Part shown: positions 33,826 through 38,836 of the stretch, piece after piece | Layout of the letters: each line of letters opens with the position of its first letter | Numbering within the stretch: the stretch's first letter is position 1 | Source: Ignavibacterium sp. | GTDB taxonomy: Bacteria; Bacteroidota; Ignavibacteria; Ignavibacteriales; Ignavibacteriaceae | Length of the DNA stretch: 57,647 nt | Assembly: GCA_020354005.1 (NCBI GenBank) | Contig: CP070637.1 | Location: 2,182,633 to 2,240,279 of the forward strand | Direction: 5' to 3' | Notes under the pieces: generated by a model | Told to the model about the DNA's origin: nothing | The model's input: the letters and a program-made list of their open reading frames with translations, nothing else | Database searches by the model: none | Made by a program: the position numbers and the translations under genes

Positions 33826-35169
33826 ATGTTTACTGAAGAACCTCTTATAAATGTTGGAATAATAACCGATAAGAAGATAAGCTTTGAATTGTATGGCGAA
33901 TTCAAGGTAACAGGATCGAAAGACACTTACAGCGGATTGTTTAATGCAGAAGTAACAGATGACCGTATTGTATGCAGCAGTAACACATCTTCATATGAAT
34001 TTAGCGATGAGGTTTTTTTTGAACCTGGGGATTTATTTTCCGATTCGTTTTTAGTAAAAGATGTTATAATTGGTGTGGGATTTCACTGGCAAAGAAAAGA
34101 ATCGCAACAATTTAATCACTCGTTAAAGTTAGTTAGGTATAAAGATAATTTAATAGCTATAAACATCCTGCCATTGGAAGACTACCTAACATCAGTAATC
34201 TCTTCTGAAATGAATGCTAAATCTTTCCTTCAATCTCTTAAAGCACAAGCAGTTGTTTCAAGGAGCTGGGTACTAGCACAGTTGGAAAAATCAGAATTAG
34301 TGAATACAGATGAATCACTAGCTGATGAGAATCAGGCTCAAGATGAACACATTCGATGGTATAGCAGAGAGCAGCATACAAACTTTGATGTTTGCGCTGA
34401 CGATCACTGTCAGAGATTTCAGGGTATAACAAAAATTACTACAGATATAGCTCGTAAAGCAGTATTTGAAACCAGAGGAATAGTATTGATGTACGATGGT
34501 AATATATGTGATACAAGATATTCTAAGTCTTGCGGTGGCATAACGGAAAATAGTAAAAATGTATGGGAGCCGATTGATAGGCCTTATCTAAAATCTGTAA
34601 TTGATTATAAACATGAGCCGGATGATTTTAATCTGAACTTTACTAAGGAAGTGAATGCAAGTAAGTGGATAAACGATTATCCGCCAGCTTACTGCAACAC
34701 AGATGATGAAACTATTCTTTCACAAATTCTTGTGGATTTTGATCAGGAGACAAAAGATTTTTTTCGATGGAAACTGGAATACAGCCAGGAAGAATTATCT
34801 GCTATTATAAAGGAAAAGAGTGGATTTGATTTTGGAAATATAATAGATTTAGTACCTGTTGAACGTGGGCAATCGGCACGACTAACAAAGTTGAAAATTG
34901 TAGGAAGTAAAAAAACTCTTGTAGTTGGTAAAGAGCTGGAAATAAGAAGGATACTTTCGAAAACACATTTATACAGCTCTGCATTTGTGATTGAAAAAGA
35001 ATTTAATGATGCAGATATACCGGTTAAGTTTATTTTGTCCGGTGCCGGATGGGGACACGGTGTTGGATTATGTCAAATCGGTTGCGCTGTTATGGCGGAG
35101 AAAGGTCATGAGTTTGATGAAATTCTGCTCCATTATTTTTCAAACGCGGCGATAAAAAAGATTTACTGA
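33826..35169 (+). CDS. SpoIID/LytB-domain protein without signal peptide
   Basis: A 447-residue protein of the SpoIID/LytB family, whose founding member is a peptidoglycan lytic transglycosylase. The catalytic region has ISSEMNAKSFLQSLKAQAVV with the likely catalytic Glu128, VCADDHCQRFQG (189-200), YSKSCGGITENSKNVW (232-247) and GAGWGHGVGLCQIG (406-419). Unlike classical SpoIID it starts directly with MFTEEPLINVGIITDKKISF and has neither signal peptide nor membrane anchor. From memory, a similar signal-less subfamily occurs in Bacteroidales. It begins a four-gene operon; the next gene starts five bases downstream. Confidence 0.88.
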   Translation: MFTEEPLINVGIITDKKISFELYGEFKVTGSKDTYSGLFNAEVTDDRIVCSSNTSSYEFSDEVFFEPGDLFSDSFLVKDVIIGVGFHWQRKESQQFNHSLKLVRYKDNLIAINILPLEDYLTSVISSEMNAKSFLQSLKAQAVVSRSWVLAQLEKSELVNTDESLADENQAQDEHIRWYSREQHTNFDVCADDHCQRFQGITKITTDIARKAVFETRGIVLMYDGNICDTRYSKSCGGITENSKNVWEPIDRPYLKSVIDYKHEPDDFNLNFTKEVNASKWINDYPPAYCNTDDETILSQILVDFDQETKDFFRWKLEYSQEELSAIIKEKSGFDFGNIIDLVPVERGQSARLTKLKIVGSKKTLVVGKELEIRRILSKTHLYSSAFVIEKEFNDADIPVKFILSGAGWGHGVGLCQIGCAVMAEKGHEFDEILLHYFSNAAIKKIY

Positions 35170-35174
35170 GCAGT

Positions 35175-36308
35175 ATGAAAATTCTTTATTCCTGTTTATC
35201 TAAAAGCTGGGGTGGAATGGAAATGGTTACTATTAATACAATCAAACGGCTTTTGGATAAAGGTATTACAGGTGAATTATTGTGTACAACAGAAAGTAGA
35301 ATTCATATTGAAGCAAATAATTTTGGTATGATGATTTATCCTGTTAAAGCCCCCGGTTACTTTCATCCCCTGGCAACCATTCGTGTAGCATTAACAATTA
35401 AGAAAAGGAATTATGACTTAATTCATACGCATGCGTCCAAGGACCTGTGGCTACTTGTCCCTGCACTGAAAATAGTAGGTAGCAGAGCACCTCTGCTGTT
35501 AACAAAACACGTAGGTTCCTTTATAAGCAAAAAGGATGTAATGCATAACTGGCTTTACAGTAGAGTAGATTATGCAATTGCTATAAGCAATGTTATCCGG
35601 CAAAACCTTCTTAATACAACAAGCCTTGCAGAAGATAAGATACTTTTGCATTACAATGGTGTTGATTGTACTAAGTTTGACCCTGCAAAACATGATCGCA
35701 ACAAAGTAAGAAATGAGTTAAATATTGCCGACGGCGATATCTTGATTGGAATGGTAGGCAGGTTTAGTGTGGGAAAGGGCCATGAAGAATTTATTACGGC
35801 AGCAAAAACATTGAATGAGTCACATTCGAATTTAAAGTTTATTATTACCGGAGAAGCAAGCAGGGGTGAAGATTCATATGAAGCACAAATTAAAAAATTA
35901 GCCAATGATATGGATCTGAAGAATATCATCTTCACCGGATTTAGAGATGATATCCCAAATGTAATTGCAGCGATGGATATTTTTGTTATTCCATCACACT
36001 CGGAAGCTTTCGGTGTGGCATTAGTAGAGGCGATGGCAATGGGTAAGCCATCTGTTTGCTCAAACTCTGATGGGATATTGGATATAGCAGTAGATGGTGA
36101 AACAGGTTACCTGTTTGAGAAAAAGGATGCAGATGATTTAATCGACAAAATAGAAATGTTAATTAACTCACCTGTGAAACGTGAAGAATATGGAAGAGCA
36201 GCACGAAAGAGGGTGGTAGAGCATTTTGAATTTAATAAACTGATAGATGAACTTGTAAATACCTACAAGCAGATAATTTATCAAAACAATCAAATCAAGG
36301 ATTTCTAA
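35175..36308 (+). CDS. GT4-family glycosyltransferase
   Basis: A 377-residue GT-B fold enzyme. The N-terminal acceptor domain shows SKSWGGMEMVTINTIKRLLD and DLIHTHASKDLW; the C-terminal donor domain shows IGMVGRFSVGKGHEEFITAA, IIFTGFRDDIPNVIAAMD and the EX7E block EAFGVALVEAMAMGKP. It should transfer a sugar from an activated nucleotide donor, usually with retention. No membrane segment is evident. It lies five bases after the SpoIID gene. Confidence 0.92.
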   Translation: MKILYSCLSKSWGGMEMVTINTIKRLLDKGITGELLCTTESRIHIEANNFGMMIYPVKAPGYFHPLATIRVALTIKKRNYDLIHTHASKDLWLLVPALKIVGSRAPLLLTKHVGSFISKKDVMHNWLYSRVDYAIAISNVIRQNLLNTTSLAEDKILLHYNGVDCTKFDPAKHDRNKVRNELNIADGDILIGMVGRFSVGKGHEEFITAAKTLNESHSNLKFIITGEASRGEDSYEAQIKKLANDMDLKNIIFTGFRDDIPNVIAAMDIFVIPSHSEAFGVALVEAMAMGKPSVCSNSDGILDIAVDGETGYLFEKKDADDLIDKIEMLINSPVKREEYGRAARKRVVEHFEFNKLIDELVNTYKQIIYQNNQIKDF

Positions 36309-36320
36309 ACGTAGTTAAGG

Positions 36321-37793
36321 ATGAATAGATCAATAACAGCATTTATATTGTGTACAAATAAGGATGTTGCAGTAAAGAATGCAGAGAAATTCAAGTCTGC
36401 TGAATCTGTGAAAGACACTATTATTGTAACAGATATTTCAGCTTCGGAATATTTACCACATTATAATTATCTTCAGTCTGATTCGATTACTAACACTACT
36501 GTTTTTAAAAATATATATTCTGAATGCAATACTGAATTTTTCCTGCTGATTATTGGTGACATAGAAATTAATATAGATAAAAAAGCACTATCCATATTTA
36601 CTGAAGTTGCGAAATCAAGTTCAGCAGGATTAGTTTACTCAGACTATTACGAAAGACTGGATAATACTACTACCGAACACCCAACAATAGATTATAAAAA
36701 AGGCAGCATCAGGGATGATTTTGAATTTGGTCCGATTATGTTTTTTAAAAAAGACTCTGTTAAGAAATTCTTCGAGCAAAAAATTAACTACAACTTTGCT
36801 GGATTATATAGTTTAAGGTTATCCGTATCAGAGAATTATTCGGTTATTCGGATTTCGGAGTACCTTTATAGTGCAAGCAAACATGATTTGAGAAAATCAG
36901 GCGAAAAGCTTTTTGATTATGTAGACCCACATAATCGTGATGTGCAAATTGAAATGGAGAAAGCTGCTACTTTTCATCTGAAACAAATTGGCGCTTATCT
37001 CCTGCCAGTTGAAAGGGATACGAACCTCGATGCTGAAAAATTTGAATATGAAACTTCTGTAATTATACCTGTTAAGAATAGAGAGAAAACAATTGAAGAT
37101 GCAGTACATTCAGCACTAAATCAACACACTGATTTTTCTTTTAATGTACTTGTAGTTGATAATCACTCCAGCGTTTCAACAACTCAAATACTCAGCGACT
37201 TAGAAAAGAAAGAAGAAAAGCTTGTTCATATCATACCAGAAAGAACAGATCTGGGAATAGGCGGCTGCTGGAATGAAGCTATACTTAATTCACAATGTGG
37301 AAAGTTTGCTGTTCAGCTAGATAGTGATGATCTTTACTTGAATGAGCATACACTTCAAATAATTGCAGATAAATTTTATCAGGATAGATGTGCAATGGTT
37401 ATCGGCAGTTACAAATTAACTGATTTTAATCTTAAAGAAATTCCACCGGGTGTAATTGATCATAAAGAATGGACCGATGAGAATGGACACAATAATGCAT
37501 TGAGGATAAATGGTTTGGGGGCTCCGCGAGCGTTTTATACTCCTGTTATCAGAGAAATAAAATTTCCAAATGTTAGTTATGGAGAAGACTATGCGGCAGC
37601 TTTGGCAATATTGAGAGAGTATAAAATTGGTCGAATATATGAGCCGCTTTACATTTGCAGAAGATGGGAGGGCAATACAGATGCTGACCTTAGCATTGAA
37701 CAACAAAATGCAAACAATTATTACAAAGACAGCATCCGTACAACTGAAATATTAGAAAGACAAAAGAAGAATAAATATAAATCTGTACAATAA
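36321..37793 (+). CDS. GT2-type glycosyltransferase with extended N-terminus
   Basis: A 490-residue protein with a GT-A domain in its C-terminal half (about 245-480): [40 protein letters not shown] and the nucleotide-sugar motif [10 protein letters not shown]. The N-terminal 230 residues look like a second, degenerate GT-A-like module ([34 protein letters not shown]) with no clear DxD. It may therefore be a two-module transferase with one active site. Gap to GT4 is 12 bases. Confidence 0.82.
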
Positions 37794-37813
37794 CATTGAG
37801 TGAATAACCGCAA

Positions 37814-38836
37814 TTGACTTACCCGAAACTATCCGATAACAAAAAAGTTTTAGCTGAAATTGAAGATAAGGATTACGCAAGTGCAGCTAAACAGTTATTA
37901 ATTTCTCAACTAAACGATTGGGAAGAGCTTGCCGAAGGATATAAAAGATTAAACAATGTAAAAGTTAAATCTTTTTTGATTGATGATTTTCACATTAAGC
38001 TGCAATTAAATCCCAGCAGAATGAAATCTACTTCTGCAAAAGTAGGTGAGAAAGAAATTAAAAAACGCAGTTGTTTTCTTTGTTCTGAAAACCTTCCATA
38101 TGACCAGAGAGGAATAAAGTTGATTGATGATTATGTTTTATTATGTAATCCTTATCCAATTTTTCCCAATCACTTTACAATAGCTTCAATTAGTCACGAA
38201 CCACAAGAGATAAAATCTTCATTTAATGATTTTATATCACTTAGCAGGATGCTATCGGATAAATACACGCTTATTTATAACGGACCAAGGTGTGGTGCAT
38301 CAGCTCCCGATCACTTACACTTTCAAGCTGGAACAAAACAGTATATGCCAATTGAGAATGAATTTCATACTCTTATAAAAAATCACGGCAATGAAATTCT
38401 AAACAATAAAAATATTGCTATTAATGTTGTGGATGATGGTCTAAGAAGATTTATTAGTTTCGAATCCGGAGACGTAAATGTTCTTCTCGAATCCTTTGAT
38501 CGGTTCTATCATTTATACCCTAATATAAAATCTGAAAATGAGCCAATGATGAATATCATTTGCAACTACGCGAAAGAATATGGATGGAGAGCAGTTATTT
38601 TTTTAAGACACAAACATCGATCATCACATTATTATTTGGAGGGTAATGAGAAAATTACTATTAGTCCGGCCGCAATAGATATTGGAGGTGTTTGTATAAT
38701 CCCTGTTGAAAAAGATTTTAAAAGAATAGATGAAGAAACACTTACTGAGGTATTTGAAGAAGTCTCGCTTCAAAGAAATGATTTTGAAAAACTTATTATG
38801 CTATTGAAAGAGGAGTACAACTACAGATCACTTTAA
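37814..38836 (+). CDS. DUF4922 protein with HIT/GalT-like HxHxQ motif
   Basis: A 340-residue cytoplasmic protein matching DUF4922. It has CFLCSENLPYDQRGI (Cys87, Cys90), VLLCNPYPIFPNHFTIAS and NGPRCGASAPDHLHFQAG, where His167, His169 and Gln171 form the HxHxQ pattern of GalT-like and GDP-sugar phosphorylase nucleotidyltransferases. A role in making or recycling an activated sugar for the adjacent glycosyltransferases is plausible but unproven. A TTG at 37814 is the start: an in-frame stop lies just upstream and no early ATG exists. The gene is last in the operon and overlaps the opposing DUF885 gene by nine bases. Confidence 0.85.
   Translation: MTYPKLSDNKKVLAEIEDKDYASAAKQLLISQLNDWEELAEGYKRLNNVKVKSFLIDDFHIKLQLNPSRMKSTSAKVGEKEIKKRSCFLCSENLPYDQRGIKLIDDYVLLCNPYPIFPNHFTIASISHEPQEIKSSFNDFISLSRMLSDKYTLIYNGPRCGASAPDHLHFQAGTKQYMPIENEFHTLIKNHGNEILNNKNIAINVVDDGLRRFISFESGDVNVLLESFDRFYHLYPNIKSENEPMMNIICNYAKEYGWRAVIFLRHKHRSSHYYLEGNEKITISPAAIDIGGVCIIPVEKDFKRIDEETLTEVFEEVSLQRNDFEKLIMLLKEEYNYRSL

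Follow-up and report, generated by a model that had tools for sequence, protein, structure and literature searches.

Gene organization of the locus

The window analyzed here, a 57,647-nucleotide stretch of the Ignavibacterium sp. contig CP070637.1, contains a compact block of four genes at 33826-38836 that encodes a SpoIID-domain protein, two glycosyltransferases (GT4 and GT2) and a DUF4922 protein. All four open reading frames (ORFs) lie on the plus strand with intergenic spacings of 5, 12 and 20 bp, in agreement with the first-pass annotation of the window. Three of the products, SpoIID, GT2 and DUF4922, form a trio that is one functional unit across Bacteroidota and probably represents an undescribed step in the recycling of cell-wall sugars. 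The genes are as follows.

33826..35169, + strand: predicted SpoIID-type lytic transglycosylase, cytosolic, zinc-type, 447 residues, no signal peptide (PF08486, 1.4e-22; TIGR02669, 1e-53)
35175..36308, + strand: GT4 glycosyltransferase, 377 residues, a local Ignavibacteria neighbor, probably accessory (PF00534, Glycos_transf_1, 3e-43)
36321..37793, + strand: GT2-family glycosyltransferase, 490 residues, tandem GT-A folds (PF00535, Glycos_transf_2, 3.8e-20)
37814..38836, + strand: DUF4922 nucleotidyl-transferase/phosphorylase-like protein, 340 residues, TTG start (PF16269, 3.5e-57)

The block is bordered by opposite-strand genes for an arginase and for a protein whose match to DUF885 falls below threshold. 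Sigma-70 promoter and terminator matches in the locus are no more numerous than in shuffled sequences. In sister genomes, relatives of SpoIID and DUF4922 (55-67% identity) lie on one strand with equal spacing of a few kilobases, an arrangement conserved far above chance, and genome G004 retains the complete SpoIID-GT4-GT2-DUF4922 order.

The SpoIID active site

The SpoIID protein keeps the motifs that had been reported for it at first pass: Glu128, VCADDHCQRFQG, SCGG and GHGVGLCQIG. In Clostridioides difficile SpoIID, E101 is catalytic, H134, C140, H145 and C146 are the zinc ligands, and the substrate is denuded glycan produced by the amidase SpoIIP (PMC6221140). The corresponding sites in the window are listed below.

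34207..34209, + strand: codon of Glu128, which aligns with the catalytic glutamate of SpoIID (E101 in C. difficile; alignment to 5i1t/4rwr)
34375..34410, + strand: zinc-site motif H184..C190..H194-C195, counterpart of C. difficile H134/C140/H145/C146 (alignment; PMC6221140)

Glu128 and the four zinc-site residues are invariant in 120 of 120 cytosolic-type SpoIID sequences, as are C236, H411 and C416. In a model of a natural DUF4922-SpoIID fusion (L108), the family fold matches the SpoIID crystal structures 5i1t and 4rwr. By sequence, the domain is a putative zinc-type lytic-transglycosylase active site. Against the sporulation equivalog TIGR02870, the window protein scores 141 bits, under the curated cut-off of 234.75.

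Predicted cytosolic location of SpoIID

Only five codons are open upstream of the ATG (a 452-residue open frame), which excludes a hidden signal peptide in the window protein. At most 25 codons are open upstream in 97 of 132 SpoIID homologs, and none of the 132 displays an export signal, as judged by hydropathy and not by a dedicated signal-peptide predictor. N-terminal hydropathy reaches a maximum of 2.11 in the cytosolic-type proteins, compared with 2.15-2.91 in exported paralogs. The earlier statement that the protein lacks a signal peptide and an anchor is thus borne out, and the alternative of a longer start concealing a signal is rejected for the window and finds no instance across the family. 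Known members of the SpoIID/LytB class are exported or membrane-anchored; because the window protein has neither an export signal nor an anchor, it is described here as a SpoIID-domain protein and not as a classical SpoIID.

The same genome encodes a second SpoIID at C1:103.6 kb, with a hydrophobic N terminus, a lipobox-like LLISC sequence and no zinc motif. A long branch separates the cytosolic-type proteins from the exported paralogs in the tree, with a node support of just 0.70. A literature search for cytosolic or intracellular lytic transglycosylases turned up nothing evidently related.

Additional SpoIID copies were seen in two genomes. Near a contig start in the window's genome (L013, C1:1952-5263, match near 3.4 kb), a 157-residue frame repeats the C-terminal 113 residues of the exported paralog (L002) at 96% identity, and may reflect a recent duplication of part of the gene or an artefact of assembly. 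Genome G057 contains two full-length cytosolic-type SpoIID genes (C3:355497-356822 and C15:463546-464883) and a second, divergent DUF4922 of 30% identity.

Structure of the GT2 and DUF4922 proteins

The Pfam match of GT2 is confined to residues 246-376, in the C-terminal half, and the AlphaFold2 model (predicted local distance difference test score, pLDDT, 89) contains two GT-A folds. The model is nearest to the chondroitin polymerase 2z86 (Foldseek, E 1e-20) and also resembles the heparosan synthase 8vh8. The C-terminal GT-A domain has a strict DxD-type motif, and the N-terminal domain a looser one, with D108 in 64 of 70 sequences.

The DUF4922 protein has an additional, weaker Pfam match to Ap4A_phos_N (2.5e-6) and a profile match to Apa2 (4i5t) at 1.1e-5. 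The L108 fusion, which is a natural homolog and not the window's protein, was modeled at pLDDT 90 and matches yeast Apa2 at 1e-9 and, weakly, GalT (1hxq) at 8e-4. The motifs of the two proteins are located as follows.

37320..37331, + strand: DSDD, DxD-type nucleotide-sugar/metal motif in the C-terminal GT-A domain of GT2 (D334, D336 and D337 in 70/70)
38072..38083, + strand: C87-F-L-C90, probable zinc-binding CxxC in DUF4922 (C87 68/69, C90 67/69)
38312..38326, + strand: H167-L-H169-F-Q171, HxHxQ nucleotidyl-transfer motif in DUF4922 (H167 and H169 69/69; Q171 67/69)

The CxxC, a conserved histidine and the HxHxQ are all retained in DUF4922. We take the HxHxQ to be the motif known from GalT and Ap4A phosphorylase, and the whole set presumably resembles the zinc and nucleotidyl-histidine site of GalT. 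Motifs and model together predict that DUF4922 is a GalT/Ap4A-phosphorylase-like nucleotidyl-transfer enzyme. The first-pass annotation had cast it as a sugar activator; the nucleotidyl-transfer part of that proposal stands, but a GalT-like enzyme may consume nucleotide sugars as readily as make them. A literature search for DUF4922 returned plant GDP-L-galactose phosphorylase papers only.

SpoIID, GT2 and DUF4922 form one unit

Within 296 genomes of the phylum, SpoIID occurs in 40, GT2 in 40 and DUF4922 in 41, and 39 genomes contain all three. The E-value lines for presence of the module, and of AmpG below, were drawn after the match lists had been viewed; a wide gap separated strong from weak matches at these lines. 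Every one of the 28 genomes sampled from the order has a SpoIID relative of 45-66% identity, and such relatives also occur in several other families. The family is found in Ignavibacteria-type metagenome-assembled genomes, to whose loci the window locus is closest, and widely in Bacteroidales, including Bacteroides, Prevotella-type genera, Parabacteroides, Marinifilum and Dysgonomonas.

The gene order in Bacteroidales is GT2-DUF4922-SpoIID. Six Prevotella-type loci (L122, L124, L127, L134, L135 and L151) encode the three domains as a single protein of 1251-1297 residues, and a seventh triple fusion (L143) runs off the end of its contig. Pairwise fusions are also present, six of GT2-DUF4922 and six of DUF4922-SpoIID, and the fusion domains were confirmed by Pfam in L134 and L113. 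In Bacteroidales and families f4, f5 and f10, the genes of the trio are closely linked or fused, but tight linkage is not universal, because in part of Ignavibacteriales SpoIID and GT2-DUF4922 lie on different contigs; scattering in most relatives had been named as a threat to the proposed system, and the linkage is loose in that group. The system had been proposed with four products. The trio survives as its conserved core, and GT4 is rejected as a general member since it adjoins SpoIID in Ignavibacteria only, with strong relatives at L073, L074, L077, L079 and L083.

Genome G045 contains a second GT2-DUF4922 copy (C140:4457-8732), in which DUF4922 is split and the reading frame is interrupted by stops; this copy is apparently a degenerate duplicate, and an intact pair lies on contig C67.

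Association with AmpG and peptidoglycan recycling

Of the 79 loci, 42 have AmpG as the gene immediately 3' of SpoIID and 51 have it within 10 kb. An AmpG-like permease (E < 1e-20) is encoded in all 41 module genomes and in 7 of 39 controls; the controls for AmpG and MurQ were hand-picked from the listed genomes and were not random. NamZ, MurK, MurQ, an amidase and GH3 are recurrent neighbors of the trio in Bacteroidales, f4, f5 and f10, and are not adjacent in the window. In the window's genome, AmpG (C1:2143232-2144410) is separated from the trio by about 73 kb. It is flanked by a BadF-type sugar kinase on one side and by a beta-lactamase-family protein on the other, after which comes a GH3 enzyme with an export-like N terminus.

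AnmK is rarer with the module, being present in 17 of 41 module genomes compared with 190 of 255 others. A strict substitution of AnmK by the module is rejected on the 17 genomes that keep it, and MurQ is rejected as a marker of module genomes, as 9 of 41 lack it. Both AnmK and MurQ are without a match in nine module genomes, including the window's assembly (rated 80% complete) and G004 (100%).

In Tannerella forsythia, the operon Tanf_08345-08385 (xanthan lyase-gtf-gtf-lytB-ampG-ybbC-murT-murK-murQ) is transcribed as one unit (PMC5388701). The substrates taken up by Tannerella AmpG are mostly peptide-free GlcNAc-anhMurNAc and GlcNAc-MurNAc, disaccharides of N-acetylglucosamine (GlcNAc) and anhydro- or plain N-acetylmuramic acid (anhMurNAc, MurNAc), and the organism grows on GlcNAc-anhMurNAc with no predicted AnmK ortholog, by a strategy that "remains to be explored" (PMC7670621).

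Two further features recur in genomes with the module. A golvesin-type protein of about 1020 residues with a Golvesin_C domain lies upstream of the trio in Bacteroidales (L090:2550-5636, L123:4500-7553), and the one in L123 has a weak Amidase_3 match; the protein, whose gene is named "xanthane lyase" at this position in Tannerella, may be a peptidoglycan amidase. A long AmpG variant of about 600-640 residues, with an insertion between the permease halves, is encoded at L181:6383-8284, L110:11328-13118 and L123:13806-15650.

Replacement of SpoIID in family f45

Genomes of family f45 display the order (NamZ-AmpG-)GT2-DUF4922-GH3. A signal-less, NagZ-type GH3 occupies the place of SpoIID in four of four genomes, and cytosolic-type SpoIID was not found in any of them. 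This GH3 matches the beta-N-acetylhexosaminidase model PRK05337 at 1.4e-53, which is below the model cut-off, and two of the four GH3 reads stop at a contig end. NamZ and AmpG were not seen within the stretch examined of G330. In two other genomes, G107 and G285, AmpG and the trio are present and neither GH3 nor AnmK was found. The order in G107 (L178:6739-13798) is SpoIID-amidase (AMIN+Amidase_3)-AmpG-GT2-DUF4922, which places a peptide-stripping amidase within the module cluster, between SpoIID and AmpG.

Proposed role and alternative explanations

The trio likely belongs to AmpG-dependent peptidoglycan recycling, as a cytosolic machine that would process AmpG-imported, peptide-free GlcNAc-(anhydro)MurNAc; we put the probability at roughly three in four. 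The recycling of a muropeptide-like substrate inside the cell had been suggested at first pass, and is strongly supported by the adjacency and co-occurrence of AmpG, the recycling neighbors, the fusions and the displacement by a NagZ-type enzyme. The exact substrate, reaction direction and products outlined below are those that we infer from the genomic observations, namely the missing export signal, the behavior as one unit, the intact active sites, the tie to AmpG and the replacement of SpoIID in f45.

Periplasmic amidases would first remove the peptides, and peptide-free GlcNAc-anhMurNAc, together with GlcNAc-MurNAc, would enter through AmpG. The module would then handle the muro-disaccharides ahead of MurK/MurQ or other routes. 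SpoIID may recognize denuded GlcNAc-MurNAc sugars and work at the MurNAc C1 (anhydro or glycosidic) end, and GT2 and DUF4922 may jointly transfer a sugar, for which GlcNAc is the likeliest candidate, between the muro-sugar and a nucleotide sugar or sugar-1-phosphate. The preferred chemistry is catabolic: GT2 in reverse and phosphorolysis by DUF4922 would together bring about the net phosphorolysis of GlcNAc-MurNAc, and SpoIID would re-open or transfer the anhydro end, in place of cytosolic NagZ and AnmK. This chemistry was chosen because it accounts for both the transferase/phosphorylase-like fusion and the NagZ displacement, and in its specifics it is doubtful. It is a tentative possibility that the trio constitutes a new cytosolic route, combining a lytic-transglycosylase fold acting on an imported muro-disaccharide with a reverse glycosyltransferase and a nucleotide-sugar phosphorylase. 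Such a route would return GlcNAc in the form of GlcNAc-1-phosphate and re-open anhydroMurNAc with neither NagZ nor AnmK; in some gut bacteria, a single protein with three domains would carry out all of it.

Several points weigh against a recycling role. The functional statements rest on genomics and models. The Fisher tests for the AmpG association (p = 7e-16) and the AnmK depletion (p = 7e-5) ignore shared ancestry. AmpG lies apart from the trio in Ignavibacteriales, including the window. Since 17 of the 41 module genomes keep AnmK and most keep GH3 enzymes, the module does not simply replace them one for one. Ring-opening or transfer must be assumed, because it is hard to see what a lytic transglycosylase would use as a forward substrate among disaccharides.

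Polymers are the usual substrate of SpoIID, and GT2 is most like 2z86 and 8vh8, polymerizers of alternating sugars. The trio could accordingly be biosynthetic, with DUF4922 supplying a nucleotide sugar, GT2 building a short cytosolic GlcNAc/MurNAc-type glycan from recycled sugars for storage or as a tag, and SpoIID trimming it to anhydro-ended pieces; the GT4 beside SpoIID in Ignavibacteria would fit. The first-pass annotation had likewise allowed that the products build or trim an intracellular glycan; the analysis found no direct support for this, though the tandem GT-A fold leaves room for it. The looser N-terminal GT-A motif, the AmpG/MurQ/MurK/NamZ neighbors and the NagZ-type hydrolase in f45 make a biosynthetic role unlikely. 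The same hydrolase swap counts against a very unlikely scheme in which the SpoIID domain has no catalytic role and, as a muropeptide sensor or scaffold, regulates GT2 and DUF4922. The presence of SpoIID in the cytosol, where polymeric peptidoglycan is absent, would suit such a role, but binding-only domains rarely keep a catalytic glutamate and four zinc ligands invariant in 120 sequences. Export of SpoIID by a non-classical route to act on wall peptidoglycan is hardly credible. All known SpoIID enzymes work outside the cytoplasm, and Tannerella Tanf_08360 is annotated lytB, "amidase enhancer precursor"; yet no member has a signal or anchor, SpoIID is fused behind GT2-DUF4922 in Prevotella-type loci, and for the periplasm the window's genome encodes another SpoIID, of the lipoprotein type.

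The module, which is widespread in gut and mouth Bacteroidales and in Ignavibacteria, puts a lytic-transglycosylase domain inside the cytosol, and a recycling role would unite three genes of the ampG operon in one function. Recycling of wall fragments shapes the release of immune-active muropeptides and the response to beta-lactams, and a distinct route in dominant commensals would therefore be consequential.

Comparison with known systems

The module SpoIID shares the fold, the catalytic glutamate, the H/C/H/C zinc-type site and the C-terminal GHGVG with SpoIID of Bacillus subtilis and C. difficile (5i1t, 4rwr). Unlike classical SpoIID, it has no signal or anchor, is fused or coupled to GT2 and DUF4922, and neighbors AmpG instead of SpoIIP/SpoIIM. 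GT2 shares two GT-A domains and a C-terminal DxD with the chondroitin polymerase K4CP and heparosan synthase, but identity is about 14%, and GT2 lies outside a capsule locus and is coupled to SpoIID and DUF4922. DUF4922 shares the fold, the HxHxQ and a GalT-like CxxC with the superfamily of Apa2 (4i5t), GDP-L-galactose phosphorylase and GalT, although sequence similarity is weak, as the profile E-value to Apa2 indicates.

Recycling of the E. coli type, by NagZ, AmpD, AnmK and MurQ, likewise begins with import by AmpG and continues with cytosolic processing of GlcNAc-anhMurNAc. The module would use different enzymes, AnmK and MurQ are often absent, and, in the window's genus, the GH3 enzymes examined beside AmpG begin with hydrophobic stretches that resemble export signals. 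The Tannerella ampG-murTKQ operon appears to contain the trio, a match by gene order and names and not by sequences. Its gtf, gtf and lytB genes were listed without a function, and DUF4922, the cytosolic location and the fusions were not recognized there (PMC5388701). Because Tannerella grows on GlcNAc-anhMurNAc without AnmK (PMC7670621), the module may fill this published gap.

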